DNA of 64,000 nt. Origin: Natrinema sp. HArc-T2. GTDB lineage: Archaea > Halobacteriota > Halobacteria > Halobacteriales > Natrialbaceae. The position numbers were made by a program, and so were the translations under genes. Under the pieces are notes generated by a model. The model had not been told where the DNA came from. It made no database searches and saw nothing but the letters and a program-made list of their open reading frames with translations. Numbering within the stretch: the first letter of the stretch is position 1; every line of letters starts with the position of its first letter. Positions 35,606 to 60,057 of this stretch are shown in pieces. The stretch is taken from the NCBI RefSeq assembly GCF_041821085.1, contig NZ_JBGUAZ010000007.1, positions 1-64,000 on the forward strand. Direction: 5' to 3'.

Positions 35606-37066
35606 ATGGACCGAGCGATCCTCGTAGTCTTCGTGACGCTCCTCGTCGTTCTTGCAGGATGTGCGGGCGGCACCGAAGGAGCCGAGGACGCGATCGGCGA
35701 CTCGCAGTCGGTTGGGGATGCTATCGAAGTCGTCGAGTTGAACGTTGCGGACGTATCACCCGATGAGGAGTACATTGTCCTCCAGAACACCGCCGATGAG
35801 CCCGTTGATTTGTCCGGGTTTGAACTCCGAGACCGAGAGGATGGGCAGGTCGATGGCGGCCTCTCACCGTTTTCGTTTCCAAGTGAGTTTATCCTCGAGT
35901 CCGGGGAGACTGTGAAGATAACGACCGGTGAAGGCGACTCAACGGAGACCGAACTGTACTGGGGGTACAACGTGAATATCTGGCGAGGCGATGGCGATGT
36001 GGTTCGGTTCGTCGACGCCAATGGCCAAGTCGTGCTCGAGCACGCTTACGGCGATATCAATCTCGATGAGTCTGAGTCGGACGGCGATGTAGATGGCGGC
36101 ACTGGTGACGAGAGCGATGGAGACGGCGAGAGTGCTGTCGAGGGCGAACTCGAGATTCACCACATCGACGTTGGACAAGGCGATTCGACTCTCATCATCA
36201 CGCCAGCCAATGAGACGATCCTGATCGATACTGGTGACTGGCGACAGGACGGCAGTGAGGTCATCGCCTATCTCGAGGCCCAGGGGATCGATCGGATCGA
36301 CCACCTGGTCGCGACGCATGCCGATGCCGATCACATCGGTGGCCACGCCGCTGTGATCGAGCACTTCGAGACGACTGGTGAGGGCGTTGGGGCTGCGTAC
36401 GATTCGGGTGTCCCATCGGATTCAGCGACCTATGAGAACTATCTCGATACCGTCGACGAGTACGACGTCGAGCTGCTCATCGTCGAAAGCGGCGATGAGC
36501 TACCGCTTGAGGGCGACATCTCTGCCCAGGTGATGAACCCGCCTGTTGGGGACGCTGGGAGTGACGTTAACGATAACAGTGTGGTGCTGGCGTTCGAGTT
36601 TGGCGACTTCCAGTATTTAGCGCCCGGCGATGTCGATACTGGCGTCGAGCAGCGGCTGGTCGACGAGTGGGGAAGCAACCTCGAGAGCGCCATCTACAAA
36701 GCCGGCCATCACGGCTCATCGACCTCCTCGAGTGAAGCCTTCGTAGATGCCATCGCTCCTGAGACAGCCATCATCTCGAGTGCCTACGACTCACAGTACG
36801 GGCATCCGAGTGACGAGGTACTCGAACGGTTTGCCGATCGGGATATCGAAACGTACTGGACTGGGGTCCACGGCGATATCGTAGTGCGGACTGATGGGAC
36901 GTCGATCGCTGTCGAGACGAGTGAGTCGTTCTCGACGAACCCAGCGGATATCCTCGCGGAGACACCTGATTCCGACGACGAGATGAATGCACTGGCACCC
37001 CCTCCGCTTGTCGCAGGCAGTGTGGCCAGTGGGATTGATGGAGCTGTCGCTCCTGCTATGGGATGA
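35606..37066 (+). CDS. lipoprotein with lamin-tail-like domain and ComEC-type metallo-beta-lactamase hydrolase
   Basis: A 486-residue exported protein. The signal segment ILVVFVTLLVVLAGCAGG ends in a lipobox (LAGC), so the mature protein is lipid-anchored outside the cell. Residues ~40-150 resemble a lamin-tail domain (VVELNVADVSPDEEYIVLQN, PVDLSGFELRDREDG). After an acidic linker, residues ~180-440 are a metallo-beta-lactamase fold: HIDVGQGDSTLII, the zinc motif THADADHIGGH, then APGDVD and KAGHHGSSTSSS, as in the ComEC/Rec2 hydrolase domain. It probably hydrolyses phosphodiesters or DNA at the cell surface. It is translationally coupled to the DUF3006 gene. Confidence 0.85.
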   Translation: MDRAILVVFVTLLVVLAGCAGGTEGAEDAIGDSQSVGDAIEVVELNVADVSPDEEYIVLQNTADEPVDLSGFELRDREDGQVDGGLSPFSFPSEFILESGETVKITTGEGDSTETELYWGYNVNIWRGDGDVVRFVDANGQVVLEHAYGDINLDESESDGDVDGGTGDESDGDGESAVEGELEIHHIDVGQGDSTLIITPANETILIDTGDWRQDGSEVIAYLEAQGIDRIDHLVATHADADHIGGHAAVIEHFETTGEGVGAAYDSGVPSDSATYENYLDTVDEYDVELLIVESGDELPLEGDISAQVMNPPVGDAGSDVNDNSVVLAFEFGDFQYLAPGDVDTGVEQRLVDEWGSNLESAIYKAGHHGSSTSSSEAFVDAIAPETAIISSAYDSQYGHPSDEVLERFADRDIETYWTGVHGDIVVRTDGTSIAVETSESFSTNPADILAETPDSDDEMNALAPPPLVAGSVASGIDGAVAPAMG

Positions 37067-37350
37067 GAGAGATGGATGGGACCTACACTGGTGTTGTCGA
37101 TCGAATTGAAGACGGTGAGATTGCTGTCATCTTGCTCGAGGAGGACGAGCAGGTGATCGAGCAAGTGGATATCCCTGCTGATCGACTCCCAGAGCCCGCC
37201 CGAACGGACGGTGGCGTGCTGTCGGTGACGCTCGAGGATAGTGAGGTCGTGTCGATGGAGTACCGACCGGACGCAACGCGAGAGCGCCGTGAATCTGTTC
37301 AGGAGAAGTTGGATCGGTTGTCCGAGCGGTTATGTGATCGCGAGGAGTGA
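37063..37350 (+). CDS. DUF3006 family protein
   Basis: A 95-residue protein: GTYTGVVDRIEDGEIAVILL, EEDEQVIEQVDIPADRLPEP and a helical, Arg/Glu-rich tail. The start of the sequence is diagnostic of DUF3006, a small beta-barrel-like family that in many genomes sits next to ComEC-like metallo-beta-lactamases, exactly as here. ATG at 37063 overlaps the upstream stop (ATGA); ATG at 37072 is an alternative. The role is presumed to assist or regulate the hydrolase. Confidence 0.85.
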   Translation: MREMDGTYTGVVDRIEDGEIAVILLEEDEQVIEQVDIPADRLPEPARTDGGVLSVTLEDSEVVSMEYRPDATRERRESVQEKLDRLSERLCDREE

Positions 37351-37739: not shown

Positions 37740-37999
37740 TCTTTGCCGACAAGTTCGGAGGTATGGTGCAACCTGAAAACGGCTGAACGGATATCGATCG
37801 CGGCGGTCAGCATGTTCACTATTTCTGCGAGGCACACTCGCTCATGCGGATTTCTAAACTGGAGGATGACAGATCTTAGCGGCTGATCTCTGCTGACGAG
37901 TCCCCGTTATGCAATGGGGTTCCAAGTACTCACGTAGGTAGGCCGTAGTAAACTCGGGAGCGAAAGCCATATTATCAATTAGTGTTACATATCGGCCAA

Positions 38000-38395
38000 G
38001 TGTACGGAGGAACGGATACGGAAATCGGCCCTAGCCCCGCAGGGACTACTATAACGACCACTGCAACGGTTGACCCACCTGTCTCACTAGATACCTTCGA
38101 CCGAATTCCGGTCCATATCACGTTTCACTACTCGAGCGGGGAACCATGGACACGTGAATTCAATAAGGGAATGCGTGCGCGTCTCCTGCTCGGCCTCTGG
38201 GACAAATTCGGCCCCTTCCACCCTGTTGAAGGCAGTACTCCGGACGAGATTATCACCGCCGGGCGGAAGGCACAAGCGGCGTACTGGTATGCGATGAAAT
38301 CACACTCACTGAGTGAGGCGGCTGATGCACTCAGCGTACAGAAATCAACGATTAGTGTCTATTCTAGCCAAATTAGGTGGACGTTCTCTGAGTAG
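38000..38395 (+). CDS. hypothetical protein with C-terminal helix-turn-helix
   Basis: A 131-residue protein. The C-terminal 50 residues (KAQAAYWYAMKSHSLSEAAD, ALSVQKSTISVYSSQIRWTF) form a helix-turn-helix with recognition helix QKSTISVYSSQIR. The N-terminal half holds a beta-rich segment (IPVHITFHYSSGEPWTREFN). GTG at 38000 is chosen because CATATTAT at 37967-37974 lies about 27 bases upstream; an in-frame GTG at 37982 is the alternative. It stands just before the inverted-repeat element and the ubiquitin-like operon and could regulate them (inference). Confidence 0.55.
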   Translation: MYGGTDTEIGPSPAGTTITTTATVDPPVSLDTFDRIPVHITFHYSSGEPWTREFNKGMRARLLLGLWDKFGPFHPVEGSTPDEIITAGRKAQAAYWYAMKSHSLSEAADALSVQKSTISVYSSQIRWTFSE

Positions 38396-38496: not shown

Positions 38497-38690
38497 TGGT
38501 TAGTGAGACGGCGAGGCAGTTCACGCTGTTCTCGCCAATCAGTAATTTTACGGACGCACTCTGGTAGAGTTATCTCTGTGTGTATTGGTAACATCATTCG
38601 CGTTCATTTATATCACGGAAATTTAAATATCCTATCGGTCCAAATTCAGACAGGTCCGTAACGACCCCCGCCTCGCCGTCTCACTAACCA
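38497..38690. repeat. 194-bp element bounded by 21-bp perfect inverted repeats (MITE-like)
   Basis: Positions 38497-38517 and 38670-38690 are exact reverse complements (beginning TGGTTAGTGAGACGGCG on the left). A second, inner pair TTACGGAC (38548-38555) and GTCCGTAA (38654-38661) is nested inside. The interior is AT-rich and non-coding. The size and terminal repeats fit a miniature inverted-repeat element, but no target-site duplication is visible at the borders, so a long hairpin of another kind is possible. Confidence 0.65.
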
Positions 38691-38903: not shown

Positions 38904-39218
38904 ATGAGTGACGATAACTCAAATCCGACCGATGAATCGCAGAAGAACAAGAACGCGGACAACGGCCATAACCCCGGCGACGAGGGTGAAGGCATCCACG
39001 TCGTCCACATCGGCAGCGAAAAGGAGAAGTTCAACGCTGACACGGTGAAAGCCCGCGAAATTATCTCACTGGTTGAACCCGACGCTGACGAGTTCACCCT
39101 AGAAGCACGTAATGGTAACTCTACCGTTGAAGAGTGGGGACCTGACGACCCTGTGGACCTCACCGAAAAGCACCGGAGCCATTTCCGAGTGATGGCCCGT
39201 GGCGGGGGCAATTCGTGA
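38904..39218 (+). CDS. ubiquitin-like protein with processable Gly-Gly-Gly tail
   Basis: A 104-residue protein. Residues 1-30 are polar and probably disordered (Asn/Asp/Lys-rich). Residues ~31-102 read as a single beta-grasp domain: IHVVHIGSEKEKFNADTVKA (two strands and helix), REIISLVEPDADEFTLEARN, then DDPVDLTEKHRSHFRVMARG, like the 'multiubiquitin' domains of prokaryotes. The tail is GGG followed by Asn-Ser. Removing the last two residues would expose a Gly-Gly terminus as in ubiquitin, and the JAB domain encoded two genes downstream is the expected protease. There is no cysteine. The GTGA overlap with the next gene shows tight coupling. Conjugation is inferred, not shown. Confidence 0.75.
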   Translation: MSDDNSNPTDESQKNKNADNGHNPGDEGEGIHVVHIGSEKEKFNADTVKAREIISLVEPDADEFTLEARNGNSTVEEWGPDDPVDLTEKHRSHFRVMARGGGNS

Positions 39219-39748
39219 GCTCAGTGAACGACAACCCTGACAGAACGGAAGCGGACCAACCCCTGAACGACGAGTGGCCGGACCCCTATATTCCCGCGAA
39301 CCACGAGAAGTTCAACGACAAGTTCCGAAACGGACTGCGCCACCTCCAGAATCGCTTGGAAGACCCGATGGTCCGTCCGGTGGCGTTCGGCCGGAACCAG
39401 AACACAGTCTACATCGTGCTCAACGAAGTCGAGCTCGATGCCGACCTCTGGAAGGAGGACACGACGGACGTTTACATGAGCGTCCCCGTAAACTTCGGAA
39501 CCGGGATACCCTATGGGTTCGTCACACACCCGCCCGTGAACCGTACGGACGGCAAGCCAGTGAGCCGTCAGCATCGCGGGAGACCCGATGCTCAACCGCT
39601 GGCGGACGCCCTCGGCGTATCCAACAGTGACCTCTCGTGGTGGTCCTACAAGTGGAAGGGTATGACTGTCAGCGACGGCACGGACATGACCAAAGGCATC
39701 GGCATCATCCGCCGCCGCCTCTCCGAAAAGGAGGGCCATAACGCATGA
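39215..39748 (+). CDS. E2/UBC-like protein (Prok-E2 family E type) lacking cysteine
   Basis: A 177-residue protein. After a polar N-terminus, residues ~35-170 follow the order of prokaryotic E2-like proteins: a helix with GLRHLQNRLEDP, strands TVYIVLNEVELDADLW and DVYMSVPVNFGTGIPYGFVT followed by HPP (the 'YP..P' region of E2s), then SWWSYKWKGMTVSDGTD and a closing helix KGIGIIRRRLSEK. The pattern is closest to the Prok-E2_E family found with ubiquitin-like and JAB/E1 genes. The whole protein contains no Cys, so it cannot form an E2 thioester. GTG at 39215 overlaps the previous stop, and its own stop overlaps the next ATG. Confidence 0.65.
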   Translation: MSSVNDNPDRTEADQPLNDEWPDPYIPANHEKFNDKFRNGLRHLQNRLEDPMVRPVAFGRNQNTVYIVLNEVELDADLWKEDTTDVYMSVPVNFGTGIPYGFVTHPPVNRTDGKPVSRQHRGRPDAQPLADALGVSNSDLSWWSYKWKGMTVSDGTDMTKGIGIIRRRLSEKEGHNA

Positions 39749-41517
39749 GTGGTGACGATTCAACCGCGAACGGAGGTGACGGCGCATCCTCCTTCGGGGG
39801 TAACTACACAAACGAAGAGGGTGGCGAAGCCATCTCCGACAAGACCGGCACTGAGGGCAAAACCCGGAAACCAGAACCCGACCGACTCGCCGCATTACAT
39901 GGCCGTGAAACGGTGAATGCAACGGTCGGCGCTGATGAAGTACACCTGTCGATGACTCGTGAGCGGTGCCGGGAACTCCGCGAGATTCTATACCCGCACC
40001 CCGAGCACCCCCACGCTGAACTTGGCGAACGCGGGGTCATCGGAATAATCGTGCCGAGTACGGGCCGAAACCGAACCACGTTCGTCCTCCGCGAACTCGT
40101 TATCCCCGACCCAGAGTTTGAGGTCGGAGATCGTGGCCACGACGACCCGTGCGATATCTACGAGGAAGGAACCGGGTTCGACAAACGGTTTTGGTTCGAC
40201 ACCTCCTACCGAAGTCGAGCGACCGATGAGGCGGCTGCGCTCGAATCCGACCGAGCTGGTCTCGTGTACTTCCACACCCACGGGCCGGGCGTCGGTGTCG
40301 AACCGAGTCAACCCGATATCGATGGGGCCGAACGTGACTACCGACTCCACCGCCGCCACTTTCACGATGACAGCCCTATGCTGAAGGCCATCGTCTCGGC
40401 AAGTAGCGGTACAATCGACCGGACCGACGAGGAAGCCTACCTCCCGGAAGCTAACCAGCTTCGCTGGCATGTCCGTTCGTTCCGGCCGGACGAGCCTGAC
40501 GAACCCGTGCGCGCTGGTGCAGTTCGAGTCGTTGGTCCACGCGTCGAAAAACATTCAACTGATACCCGTCCTGACGGGCCAGCAGGTGCCGGAGGGACAC
40601 CCCAATACGCCACGCAGAACTCAACGGAGCAACTGTGGGGCGAACCAGGCCAGCGAATCCTTGCAGGCCTCCGAGTCGGCCTCGTCGGCTGTGGCGGTGT
40701 CGGGTCGATACTCTCTGAACACATCGCCCGTCTCGGTGCTGGCGAGATGGTCGTTGCCGACTTCGACAACATCGAGTATGGGAACTTGAACCGGGCGCAA
40801 GGAGCGACCGAAACGGACGCTCGACTCGAACGCTCGAAGGCTGAAGTCGCAGGCGAACTCGCCATGGAGAGCGCGACCGCGGACGACTTCGAGGTCCGCG
40901 TCGTTGAAGGGAGCATCATCGAAGAAAACCCTGAGGACGCTGTAGTTCCGGCCCTCCTTGACTGCGACATCATCATCAACGCAGCAGATAACGCATGGGC
41001 ACGGACCGTCCTCGACGACCTCGCCTACGCACACCTCATCCCCGTCATCACGGGTGGCACCATTCTTCGGATGGACGACGGCGGGACGCTATCCCAGAGC
41101 GCAAAATCGGAAGTGATGGTCACTGGACCGGGTCACGTCTGCATGGAGTGCGCGTACGTCTACAATCAGGACGACGTATCGACTGCCATGCGGCCGCCTG
41201 ATGTTCGAGGCGACGGCGCCTACGTCCGGGGTGGCGTGGACCCGGACGACCAACCTCGCGCCCCGTCAGTCATCGGGGCGAACGCGACAGTCGCCGGAAT
41301 GATAGAGTACCGGCTAAAGGGACTTGCCCTCGGTGTCACTGAACGCGTCGTCGGCGTTCAACGGCATTTCCCCCGTACCGGGTTAATGGAGTGGGGTCCG
41401 ACAGAAGAGTGCAAGGACTCGTGTGGACGGACAAAGAGTAATCATCTTGGGATGGGCGATGCGTTCGACCTCCCAACAGGGACCGACCCAGATCTCGCGT
41501 ACCACCGCGAATCCTAG
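39745..41517 (+). CDS. JAB (JAMM) peptidase fused to E1/ThiF adenylyltransferase
   Basis: A 590-residue fusion. After a disordered N-terminus (~1-50), residues ~60-245 form a JAB/MPN+ domain with the metal motif H177-T-H179 ... S188-Q-P-D191 and Glu92 or Glu95 as the likely general base. Residues ~300-590 form an E1/ThiF domain: GCGGVG (315-320), Asp339-x-Asp341, NLNR (347-350), Lys365 and AADN (413-416). Cys466/Cys469 and Cys556/Cys560 form the usual zinc site. No spare Cys stands in the position of an E1 catalytic cysteine. The fusion would both trim the ubiquitin-like tail and adenylate it. It is the last gene of the operon; a T-rich stretch follows the stop. Confidence 0.88.
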   Translation: MSGDDSTANGGDGASSFGGNYTNEEGGEAISDKTGTEGKTRKPEPDRLAALHGRETVNATVGADEVHLSMTRERCRELREILYPHPEHPHAELGERGVIGIIVPSTGRNRTTFVLRELVIPDPEFEVGDRGHDDPCDIYEEGTGFDKRFWFDTSYRSRATDEAAALESDRAGLVYFHTHGPGVGVEPSQPDIDGAERDYRLHRRHFHDDSPMLKAIVSASSGTIDRTDEEAYLPEANQLRWHVRSFRPDEPDEPVRAGAVRVVGPRVEKHSTDTRPDGPAGAGGTPQYATQNSTEQLWGEPGQRILAGLRVGLVGCGGVGSILSEHIARLGAGEMVVADFDNIEYGNLNRAQGATETDARLERSKAEVAGELAMESATADDFEVRVVEGSIIEENPEDAVVPALLDCDIIINAADNAWARTVLDDLAYAHLIPVITGGTILRMDDGGTLSQSAKSEVMVTGPGHVCMECAYVYNQDDVSTAMRPPDVRGDGAYVRGGVDPDDQPRAPSVIGANATVAGMIEYRLKGLALGVTERVVGVQRHFPRTGLMEWGPTEECKDSCGRTKSNHLGMGDAFDLPTGTDPDLAYHRES

Positions 41518-57046: not shown

Positions 57047-58849
57047 ATGAAGACCCGTACCGAGACACTTGCGTCCCTGTATCAGGACGGCCTTTTCGAT
57101 GTTCCCTCGTATCAACGGAGCTACTCCTGGGAAAAGTCACAATTAGAGGACTTGATTGATGACCTTCGATATCTCCCAGAGGACTCCTCCCACTTCTTTG
57201 GAAACATCATCCTTGACGAGCAGGATGACGAATACAGGACAGACAAGGGTAGACGTTTTGATAAATACGATGTTGTTGACGGTCAACAGCGCCTTACGAC
57301 CGCCCTCATACTTCTCCACGTCGCCACACAGTTTGACGACGTGGTTGATGAAACTGTGTCAGAGGATAGCCTGGTTTACCCTGTTGAAGAACGACCTCGT
57401 CTATTGCCACAGGACCAAGATGAGGAGTTCTTCCGAGACAGCCTGTTCGGGGATTCAAATCTTGAAACGAAAACGCCCTCACAGGAGCGTCTCGAATTCG
57501 CATACGAGTTCTTTAAATTCCAATTTGAGGACCCCCCATCGGATATGTCCGTCCGGGAGCTATCTGAACGGTTGCGCTACGATTGCAAAATCAATATCGT
57601 AGAACTGGATGACGATTCCGAGGCAGCATCTATCTTCGAAAGTCTGAACGACCGTGGTAAGCCTCTTTCCTCGCTGGACAAGACGAAGAGTTTCCTGATG
57701 TATATGGACGACCGGTCGAGTAACCGGGGCGCACTTGAGACCAAAATCAAACAGCGGTTTGGAGGCATCTACCGCGAGCTATTCGTCCTATCAAACGGTC
57801 ACGAACGAGTCAACGATTTCGATGAAGACAGTTTCCAGCGATTTCACTGGGGAATCTACGATGGTTACGATTCAGACGAGTACTACAATAGCCTCGACAC
57901 CCTGAAAACCCGCCTACGGAACGACTATCGGCAGGGAGACTATGAACAGGTTCAGTCTGAAATAGACGAGTACACACAAGACCTCCGGGAAGCCTCGTCT
58001 GCCTTCTCAGCACTATTCCGACCACCACAGCGTCCCGAACCAGTCCGGGCACCGCTCAAACGTCTTCTCGAATTGGGTCGGGTCGCCAACGTCCTCCCGG
58101 TACTGATAGCGGCACAGATGGAGTACGGTGACGACGACCCCGAGAAGATGGTCAAGATTATTGAAGCATGTGAAACCCTCGCGTTCAGGGTATATGCAAT
58201 AGACGGACGCCGTTCGGATACAGGACGCGGGAAACTAGTTCGTCTCGCCCACAGCATCCATACAGACGATGAATACGACTTTGAGGACGCTATCGAACGA
58301 CTTGACTCCATTACCAGAAACTACACGGCGAACGAACGGTTCGTCCGGAAACTACGTGACCCAGAATTTTACGACTCAGTTACCAGTCAAGACACCCGAT
58401 ACCTGCTGTATCACTACGGGCAGAGTTTGGAAGCAGCGGTTGATGAGCACGTTGAGCACAACCTCTCGCAAATCCTCTCATCAGATTTCGAGGTGGAGCA
58501 TATCCTCGCACGGAAGCTTGATGAAGAAGATGTTCCCGCAGACCTACGCGAAGAATTCGTTGATTACGTCCATCGACTTGGAAACCTCACGACAGCCAGC
58601 GAATACTGGAACAAGACATATGGGAACCTCCCGTTTGAGGACAAGAAGACTGCAGAAGGCGATAGGGAGAAGGCATACGAATCATCCAGCCTCCGGGTTC
58701 AGCGGGTTCTATCCGAATACGATGGGTTCGGAAAAGATGAAATCGAAGAACGCGAAGAGGAGATAATCGAGTTCGCGTTGGTAGAATGGGATGTCGAACA
58801 GCCGGAAATGAGCGGACTAGAGCGGGTTGTCAAAGAAGCAAGCGAGTGA
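57047..58849 (+). CDS. GmrSD-type IV restriction enzyme (DUF262 plus HNH)
   Basis: A 600-residue single-chain GmrSD-like protein. Residues 1-200 are the DUF262/GmrS domain: FDVPSYQRSYSWEKSQLEDL, HFFGNIILDEQ and the nucleotide-binding signature YDVVDGQQRLTTALILL, then FESLNDRGKPLSSLDKTKSF. Residues ~460-590 hold the GmrD/DUF1524 HNH nuclease: FEVEHILARKL, then HRLGNLTTASEYWNKTYGNL. Such enzymes cut DNA with modified (for example glucosylated) cytosines from phages. The gene contains no CTCGAG, unlike flanking genes, and opens a defence cluster with the Mrr-type gene downstream. ATG at 57047. Confidence 0.9.
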   Translation: MKTRTETLASLYQDGLFDVPSYQRSYSWEKSQLEDLIDDLRYLPEDSSHFFGNIILDEQDDEYRTDKGRRFDKYDVVDGQQRLTTALILLHVATQFDDVVDETVSEDSLVYPVEERPRLLPQDQDEEFFRDSLFGDSNLETKTPSQERLEFAYEFFKFQFEDPPSDMSVRELSERLRYDCKINIVELDDDSEAASIFESLNDRGKPLSSLDKTKSFLMYMDDRSSNRGALETKIKQRFGGIYRELFVLSNGHERVNDFDEDSFQRFHWGIYDGYDSDEYYNSLDTLKTRLRNDYRQGDYEQVQSEIDEYTQDLREASSAFSALFRPPQRPEPVRAPLKRLLELGRVANVLPVLIAAQMEYGDDDPEKMVKIIEACETLAFRVYAIDGRRSDTGRGKLVRLAHSIHTDDEYDFEDAIERLDSITRNYTANERFVRKLRDPEFYDSVTSQDTRYLLYHYGQSLEAAVDEHVEHNLSQILSSDFEVEHILARKLDEEDVPADLREEFVDYVHRLGNLTTASEYWNKTYGNLPFEDKKTAEGDREKAYESSSLRVQRVLSEYDGFGKDEIEEREEEIIEFALVEWDVEQPEMSGLERVVKEASE

Positions 58850-59046: not shown

Positions 59047-60057
59047 ATGGCTGAGCGAGCGTTCATGGTTCGCGCCGGGAATGACAACGAGTTAGTCGGG
59101 GAATTCGAGTCTCGTTCTCTGGTCGCTATCGGATGGGAGGAGTTGGGGGATGTTTCTGATGTCCGGTCATACGAGGAGATGAAAGCCCGGTTCAACTCGA
59201 CTGACGAGTATTCCGAGCACAATAGTCGACGTATCGCCCAGAACGCTGGGCAGGTGAACCGGTTCGCGCTTGAGATGAAGGAGGAGCATCTGGTTCTGAG
59301 TTACGACAAGACGGAGCGCGAGTATCTCATCGGAGAGGTCACGAGCGGGTACGAGTGGAAACCAGGCGACCACCCACCGGGATATCCACACGTCAGGCGT
59401 GTCGAATGGAAGGACACCGTTTCGCGCGACGAGTTCACGACCTCAACGAAGAACACGCTCGGAAGCACGCTCACGGTGTTCTCGCTTGACGACTGCGTTG
59501 ATGAAATCACGGGCGTTCTAAGTGGAGAGACACCTGATGAGAGCGAGGACGAGGAGGACACCGTACCATTCGTCGACGAGGTGGAGAATCAGGCAGATGA
59601 ACTCATCTCCGACATTCTGGCGAACATGGACCCGTTCGTCTTCGAGGGACTGGTCGCCGCAGTCTTGCGAGCGATGGGGTACCACGCGAAAAAGACGCGA
59701 GACAGTCAGGACCGCGGTATCGACGTAGTCGCTCACCCCGACTCGTTGGGATTCGAAGAACCATATATCAAGGTTCAGGTCAAACGCCAACAGTCGAAGG
59801 TCGGTTCCCCGGACATGCGAGCGTTCACAGGAGCCCTTGGGAATGGTGAGCGGGGACTGTTCGTCTCGACTGGGGGATACACGAGTGAGGCGCAGGATGC
59901 TGCACGGAACGCTGAACAGCGGGTCACGCTCATTGACCGGGATGAGTTCATTGATCTCCTGATCCAGCACTACGACGACCTCGAATCCAAATATCAGGCG
60001 ACAGTCCCGTTGAAGCAGGTCTATATCCCCTCACAGGACCCGCCATTAGAAGAATGA
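59047..60057 (+). CDS. Mrr-type restriction endonuclease
   Basis: A 336-residue nuclease. Residues 1-160 form an N-terminal sensing domain (RAFMVRAGNDNELVGEFESR, SLVAIGWEELGDVSDVRSYE, HLVLSYDKTEREYLIGEVTS) of a type often found fused to Mrr_cat. Residues ~200-310 are the Mrr PD-(D/E)xK catalytic domain: PFVFEGLVAAVLRAMGYHAK, DRGIDVVAHPD (Asp), YIKVQVKRQQSKVGSPDMRA (Q-x-K) and RGLFVSTGGYTSEAQDAARN. It probably restricts modified foreign DNA. It lies 198 bases after the GmrSD gene. No CTCGAG. ATG at 59047. Confidence 0.88.
   Translation: MAERAFMVRAGNDNELVGEFESRSLVAIGWEELGDVSDVRSYEEMKARFNSTDEYSEHNSRRIAQNAGQVNRFALEMKEEHLVLSYDKTEREYLIGEVTSGYEWKPGDHPPGYPHVRRVEWKDTVSRDEFTTSTKNTLGSTLTVFSLDDCVDEITGVLSGETPDESEDEEDTVPFVDEVENQADELISDILANMDPFVFEGLVAAVLRAMGYHAKKTRDSQDRGIDVVAHPDSLGFEEPYIKVQVKRQQSKVGSPDMRAFTGALGNGERGLFVSTGGYTSEAQDAARNAEQRVTLIDRDEFIDLLIQHYDDLESKYQATVPLKQVYIPSQDPPLEE

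Follow-up and report, generated by a model that had tools for sequence, protein, structure and literature searches.

Can three small genes on a haloarchaeal element encode a complete protein-conjugation system, and if so, to which known systems is it related and by what chemistry would it work? These questions are raised by a locus in Natrinema sp. HArc-T2. The window, meaning the whole 64,000-nucleotide stretch of DNA that was analysed, contains three complete open reading frames on the + strand: a gene for a ubiquitin-like protein (Ubl; 38904..39218, 104 residues, BubA-like), a gene for an E2-like protein (39215..39748, 177 residues, BubB-like and related to Prok-E2_E), and a gene for a JAB-E1 fusion protein (39745..41517, 590 residues, BubCD-like). 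As the original prediction had stated, adjacent genes overlap by four bases, gTGA at 39215-39218 between the Ubl and E2-like genes and aTGA at 39745-39748 between the E2-like and JAB-E1 genes. That prediction described a compact haloarchaeal operon akin to the bacterial multiubiquitin/Prok-E2/E1/JAB neighbourhoods, a description that is supported by what follows. Two features that it singled out, the JAB-E1 fusion and the minimal three-gene layout, are not new: both are already known in bacteria, since row 6e in Table 1 of Iyer et al. (2006, PMC1779556) lists JAB-E1 fusions whose gene is preceded by a free-standing E2-like gene and, before that, the Ubl gene, and the structure of the Citrobacter BubCD fusion has been solved.

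Only one domain of the trio exceeds its Pfam cut-off, the ThiF domain of JAB-E1 (3.7e-30). The Multi_ubiq match of the Ubl (15.7 bits against a cut-off of 24.5, E 0.017) and the Prok-E2_E match of the E2-like protein (13.5 bits against 25, E 0.063) are both sub-threshold, so that of the profiles originally suggested as a check ThiF is clear and these two are weak. Standard annotation misses the Ubl and the E2-like protein because of these low scores. Prok-E2_E is found above the cut-off in two of 393 genomes of the phylum, and Natrinema sp. HArc-T2 is not one of them.

The Ubl ends in RGGGNS, which agrees with the GGG-Asn-Ser terminus noted originally. AlphaFold2 models it as a single β-grasp domain, at about residues 30-99, behind a disordered acidic N-terminus, with pLDDT of 89-92 at residues 31-70 and 87-89 at residues 71-100. 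The closest folds are bacterial multi-ubiquitin proteins (Z 8.4-10.6, Foldseek/VIA), and BubA from the Citrobacter BubCD-BubA complex matches with a Z of 8.4 by the same method. By fold the Ubl is therefore of the multi-ubiquitin type, with the Pfam score remaining below threshold. The tandem Ubl domains usual in bacterial Bub/6e loci are absent, both here and in the other archaeal Ubls read, all of which have a single domain. Type 6e loci usually encode a polyUbl, unlike the archaeal trio, and a tandem arrangement is not strictly defining, because Iyer et al. record a solo Ubl in one species. 

The predicted JAB cut falls after Gly100-102 (codons 39201..39209, + strand), leaving ...RGGG and removing Asn-Ser. 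Archaeal Ubl tails (GGGNS, DGNSDTIA, GSGRS, GDGENYV, TPGNS, RGQVFI, DGGKIAYE, EGGVV, GGGPVWQ, PPGGYI, GGGGFS) have a glycine followed by 2-6 residues and are otherwise not conserved, which is what JAB trimming to glycine would predict. It may be added that several archaeal Ubl genes (at L027, L035, L036, L037, L069-L070 and L072) encode an extra N-terminal stretch of some 90-120 residues, probably helical and possibly an oligomerisation domain, that the window's Ubl lacks.

The second protein was originally called E2/UBC-like. The fold is borne out: the AlphaFold2 model is a UBC fold, whose top structural match is Citrobacter BubB (Z 11.8 from a second aligner, VIA, with an rmsd of 2.8 over 126 residues; the Foldseek E-value is only 0.02), followed mostly by eukaryotic E2/UEV (UBC-fold) proteins at Z of about 5-7.4. 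The protein is not an ordinary E2, because its 177 residues include no cysteine, a point that went unremarked in the original prediction. Its relationship to the bacterial proteins is seen most clearly by profile comparison, in which the archaeal E2-like profile matches bacterial Prok-E2_E proteins with Prob 97 and E 9e-11. The same profile finds open reading frames immediately 5' of bacterial E1 genes, and Pfam assigns several of these frames to Prok-E2_E. It is thus a cysteine-free, UBC-fold protein of Prok-E2_E type, as expected of the Bub/6e family, although it does not itself reach the Pfam cut-off.

The JAB-E1 fusion is homologous to BubCD along its length. Citrobacter BubCD is its closest solved structure by sequence (E 2.9e-13), and a profile of eight archaeal JAB-E1 proteins aligns with Citrobacter JAB-ThiF over 385 columns, JAB included (hhalign Prob 99.4, E 6.7e-22). 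All of the JAB residues named in the original prediction are present, forming the JAMM motif H177-x-H179-x8-S188-x2-D191 (40273..40317, + strand), with a further glutamate, E95 (40027-40029, + strand), upstream. The eight archaeal proteins all have E95, H177, S188 and D191, and H179 is kept except in one clade (L027, L051, L054, L069, L070), where HxH has become HxQ. JAB activity is therefore not universal: the broken motif suggests, from its sequence, that activity has been lost in that clade, though its Ubls retain residues after the glycine.

The E1/ThiF adenylation domain occupies approximately residues 296-545 (40630..41379, + strand), from the ThiF match and motif alignment. The predicted GCGGVG at 315-320, D339/D341 and K365 are all there, together with N349-R350, so that the nucleotide-binding and adenylation residues are retained. 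In MoeB/ThiF-type enzymes the catalytic cysteine sits in the crossover loop. None of the archaeal or bacterial Bub-type E1s examined has a crossover-loop cysteine before APSVIGAN. The paired cysteines reported earlier are C466xxC469 and C556xxxC560 (41140..41424, + strand); all four are invariant in the eight-sequence archaeal alignment and form a putative structural zinc site, and in this the archaeal E1 differs from Bub, the Citrobacter homologue having no CxxC counterpart.

On these grounds the trio almost certainly belongs to the Bub/6e family, since all three of its proteins match parts of one solved Bub complex (BubCD, BubB and BubA/multi-ubiquitin). The Bub pathway was reportedly described by Ye et al. 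in Nat Struct Mol Biol in 2026, and the Citrobacter structures used here are PDB 9ea4, 9ea5, 9ea8 and 9eae. By homology, Bub would be the characterised form of operon type 6e. The Citrobacter plasmid homologue encodes a fusion of multi-ubiquitin with Prok-E2_E, a fusion of Prok-JAB with ThiF, and DUF6527. It shares with the archaeal trio a Ubl, a Prok-E2_E-type protein without a catalytic cysteine, and a JAB-E1 fusion; the JAB-E1 homology is full-length, and BubB and BubA rank first or nearly first among the structural matches. In the archaeal trio there is one Ubl domain, against several in tandem in Bub; its Ubl and E2-like genes are separate, whereas in Bub they are fused; and the archaeal loci searched lack DUF6527. 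None was found in the Natrinema genome or at any archaeal locus covered by the profile search, in which only two bacterial loci besides Citrobacter gave a match. As most bacterial loci in that search are also without a match, DUF6527 is not strictly defining for 6e.

Type 6e likewise has in common with the trio a Ubl, a cysteine-free E2-/RWD-like domain (sometimes as a separate gene) and a JAB-E1 fusion. It usually includes a metal-binding fourth protein, unlike the trio, and its listed hosts are all proteobacteria, actinobacteria or cyanobacteria. The trio represents operon type 6e in an archaeal variant that has three genes and a single Ubl domain. A 2010 survey of archaea (PMC2948915) found no E2-like proteins, and one methanogen with a Jab-E1 fusion; a eukaryote-like E1/E2/RING cascade was later described in an uncultured archaeon (PMC5654768). 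The archaeal branch of Bub/6e looks new.

This branch extends well beyond one genome. Another genome of the same genus (G017) carries the trio, with 44% identity in E1. All 12 haloarchaeal plasmids that have a homologue, from several families, encode Ubl, E2-like protein and JAB-E1 in the same order, in genes that overlap or stand a few bases apart. A full-length JAB-E1 homologue occurs in about 16 of 391 sampled genomes of the class (about 4%), and those loci that were read have both upstream partners. The trio is also complete in one Thermoplasmata MAG, whose Ubl ends in GGGGFS. The survey of gene linkage proposed with the original prediction thus found the trio kept in every copy inspected, and the linkage is not due to chance, because the same order recurs in the plasmid homologues, G017, the survey loci and the Thermoplasmata MAG. 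Bub-type conjugation genes therefore exist in haloarchaea and Thermoplasmata, spread by plasmids and lying below standard profile cut-offs. Among viruses, a single-protein query with JAB-E1 found no relatives in viral contigs, GenBank phages yielded none, and an alignment query of the viral contigs found one distant E1 (L147), with a Prok-E2_E open reading frame upstream.

In a tree of E1 domains the 16 archaeal members form one clade (support 100/99) inside the Bub-type group, and the host's UbaA/MoeB-like E1 is a separate gene on a separate branch. This bears on whether the trio could serve a sulfur-carrier or cofactor pathway of the ThiS/MoaD/SAMP kind rather than protein conjugation. The match to the ThiF family would suit such a role, and archaeal Ubls are often involved in sulfur transfer (PMC2948915). 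The position of its E1 apart from the UbaA/MoeB-like enzyme, the missing crossover-loop cysteine, the JAB fusion, the adjoining E2-like gene, and the failure to find any rhodanese, thiamine or molybdopterin gene close to the trio, whether at the plasmid loci or in the window, together make it very improbable. The haloarchaeal SAMP/UbaA system resembles the trio in that a Ubl is activated by a ThiF-type E1 and removed by a JAMM protease (PMC4443979), but it has a UbaA/MoeB-type E1 and no E2, whereas the trio has a Bub-type E1 and an E2-like gene.

The best explanation overall, and a likely one, is that this is a plasmid-borne, three-gene protein-modification system of the Bub family in archaea. 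Bil (BilABCD) and CBASS Cap2/Cap3 are prokaryotic systems that conjugate Ubls or proteins using E1, E2 and JAB activities in an antiviral context, and both use cysteine relays through E1 and E2. The trio differs from the Bil pattern, its E2-like protein and E1 crossover loop being free of cysteine, and this raises the question of what, if anything, carries the activated Ubl.

A candidate is Ser144 of the E2-like protein (codon 39644..39646, + strand), the inferred nucleophile in place of the catalytic cysteine. S144 is the sole invariant residue in all 22 archaeal and bacterial E2-like sequences, an alignment in which cysteine occurs at most twice in any column. In the archaeal-versus-bacterial profile comparison it aligns with a bacterial serine, which in turn lines up with the cysteine found in a second group of haloarchaeal E2s (Prob 96.6, E 6e-10): bacterial FSWH lies over YCIH, with a histidine at +2 and then W.P in both. 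The correspondence between S144 and cysteine runs by way of the bacterial sequences because the direct comparison of the archaeal set with the second haloarchaeal group is too weak (Prob 20, with an alignment that stops short of S144). An early E2 alignment, built with actinobacterial sequences among its members, put the serine in the wrong register, and this alignment was left out of the structure modelling.

We hypothesise that the JAB domain would remove the 2-6-residue tail of the Ubl to expose its C-terminal glycine, which the fused E1 domain would adenylate with ATP. The acyl group would then pass to Ser144 as an oxyester, with no thioester on an E1 cysteine; alternatively, it would go straight to the target, with the E2-like protein serving to position it. 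The Ubl would end on an amine or hydroxyl of the target, from which the same JAB domain could strip it. Genuine conjugation by the trio is probable, while a relay through S144 may be regarded as evenly balanced. The full scheme, archaeal conjugation without any cysteine relay, in which the Ubl, once adenylated by E1, is held as an oxyester by a serine E2, is put forward tentatively.

An invariant serine could also be structural. In that case the E2-like protein could be a dead adaptor of UEV/RWD type that binds Ubl and substrate, and a target lysine or a small molecule would attack the E1-bound Ubl adenylate directly. The lack of cysteine in both the E2-like protein and the crossover loop is as this reading expects, and Iyer et al. 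(2006, PMC1779556) judged the 6e E2-/RWD-like domains catalytically inactive because they are cysteine-free. Against it, a merely structural serine is unlikely to outlast all other residues, and S144 does so at the position where cysteine-bearing relatives have their cysteine. Adenylate-only transfer is accordingly a lesser prospect, though one to be taken seriously. A cysteine-free relay is directly testable with three small genes, and Haloferax genetics makes a test of function practical.

The second haloarchaeal E2 group belongs to a second, separate Ubl operon, seen at L056-L058, L060-L062 and L064 (genomes G270, G085, G384, G312, G354, G383 and G009). Its Ubl ends in VFG or PFG plus 0-2 residues, its E2-like protein has a conserved YC/WC cysteine, and it too has a JAB-E1 fusion, whose E1s form their own clade (support 97/90). 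Loci L056 and L057 have an additional E2-like gene without this cysteine, perhaps a UEV-like partner. Because the second group also matches Prok-E2_E weakly, one E2 family appears, from these comparisons, to hold both cysteine and serine forms. If this is true, haloarchaea would have both versions, and the switch of nucleophile could be studied within the group. A further haloarchaeal set (L059, genome G057) combines a clear Prok-E2_E protein (E 2e-25) with a Ubl and JAB-E1, and resembles the bacterial form more than the clade of the window's trio does.

The window lies on a 123 kb plasmid-like contig (C7), on which type IV secretion genes (TraG/TrwB, TrbL) adjoin the operon. About 16 kb downstream there are restriction genes, for a GmrSD-type protein (57047-58849) and an Mrr-family nuclease (59047-60057; PADLOC PDC-S02). 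Neither the Ubl nor the E2-like protein is picked up by PADLOC, whose 'E1-E2' models match JAB-E1 at the ThiF domain only. Most archaeal copies are plasmid-borne, many with type IV secretion genes, and the module might thus tag host proteins for the benefit of the element, in transfer, exclusion or counter-defence. This is unlikely, given that some copies (those of G017:C1, G066:C1 and G232:C1) lie on large contigs that may be chromosomal, and that several plasmid copies have helicase/nuclease or Piwi genes beside them, much as in a defence island. On the L028-L033 plasmids a recurrent cassette surrounds the operon, with a UvrD/GajB-like helicase, a PLD/TDP-like protein, DEAD/DEAH helicases and an RNase H-like protein, and a Piwi gene in L028; this cassette may be a larger defence island. 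The gene context fits a role in defence or in mobile-element conflict, and the antiviral function suggested in the original prediction is possible. Phage protection has not been shown for bacterial Bub (PMC13373217), and a defence role for the trio is slightly on the doubtful side of even.

An upstream HTH gene (37982-38395) was considered as a partner of the operon and rejected, as it is not conserved beside other copies. Also upstream is a perfect 21-nt inverted repeat (38497-38517 and 38670-38690, 152 nt apart), present as a single copy in the genome. Just upstream, at 35606-37350, are a lamin-tail and metallo-β-lactamase (ComEC-like) protein and then DUF3006, and the Halopiger copy of the trio (L035) also has a lamin-tail protein nearby.
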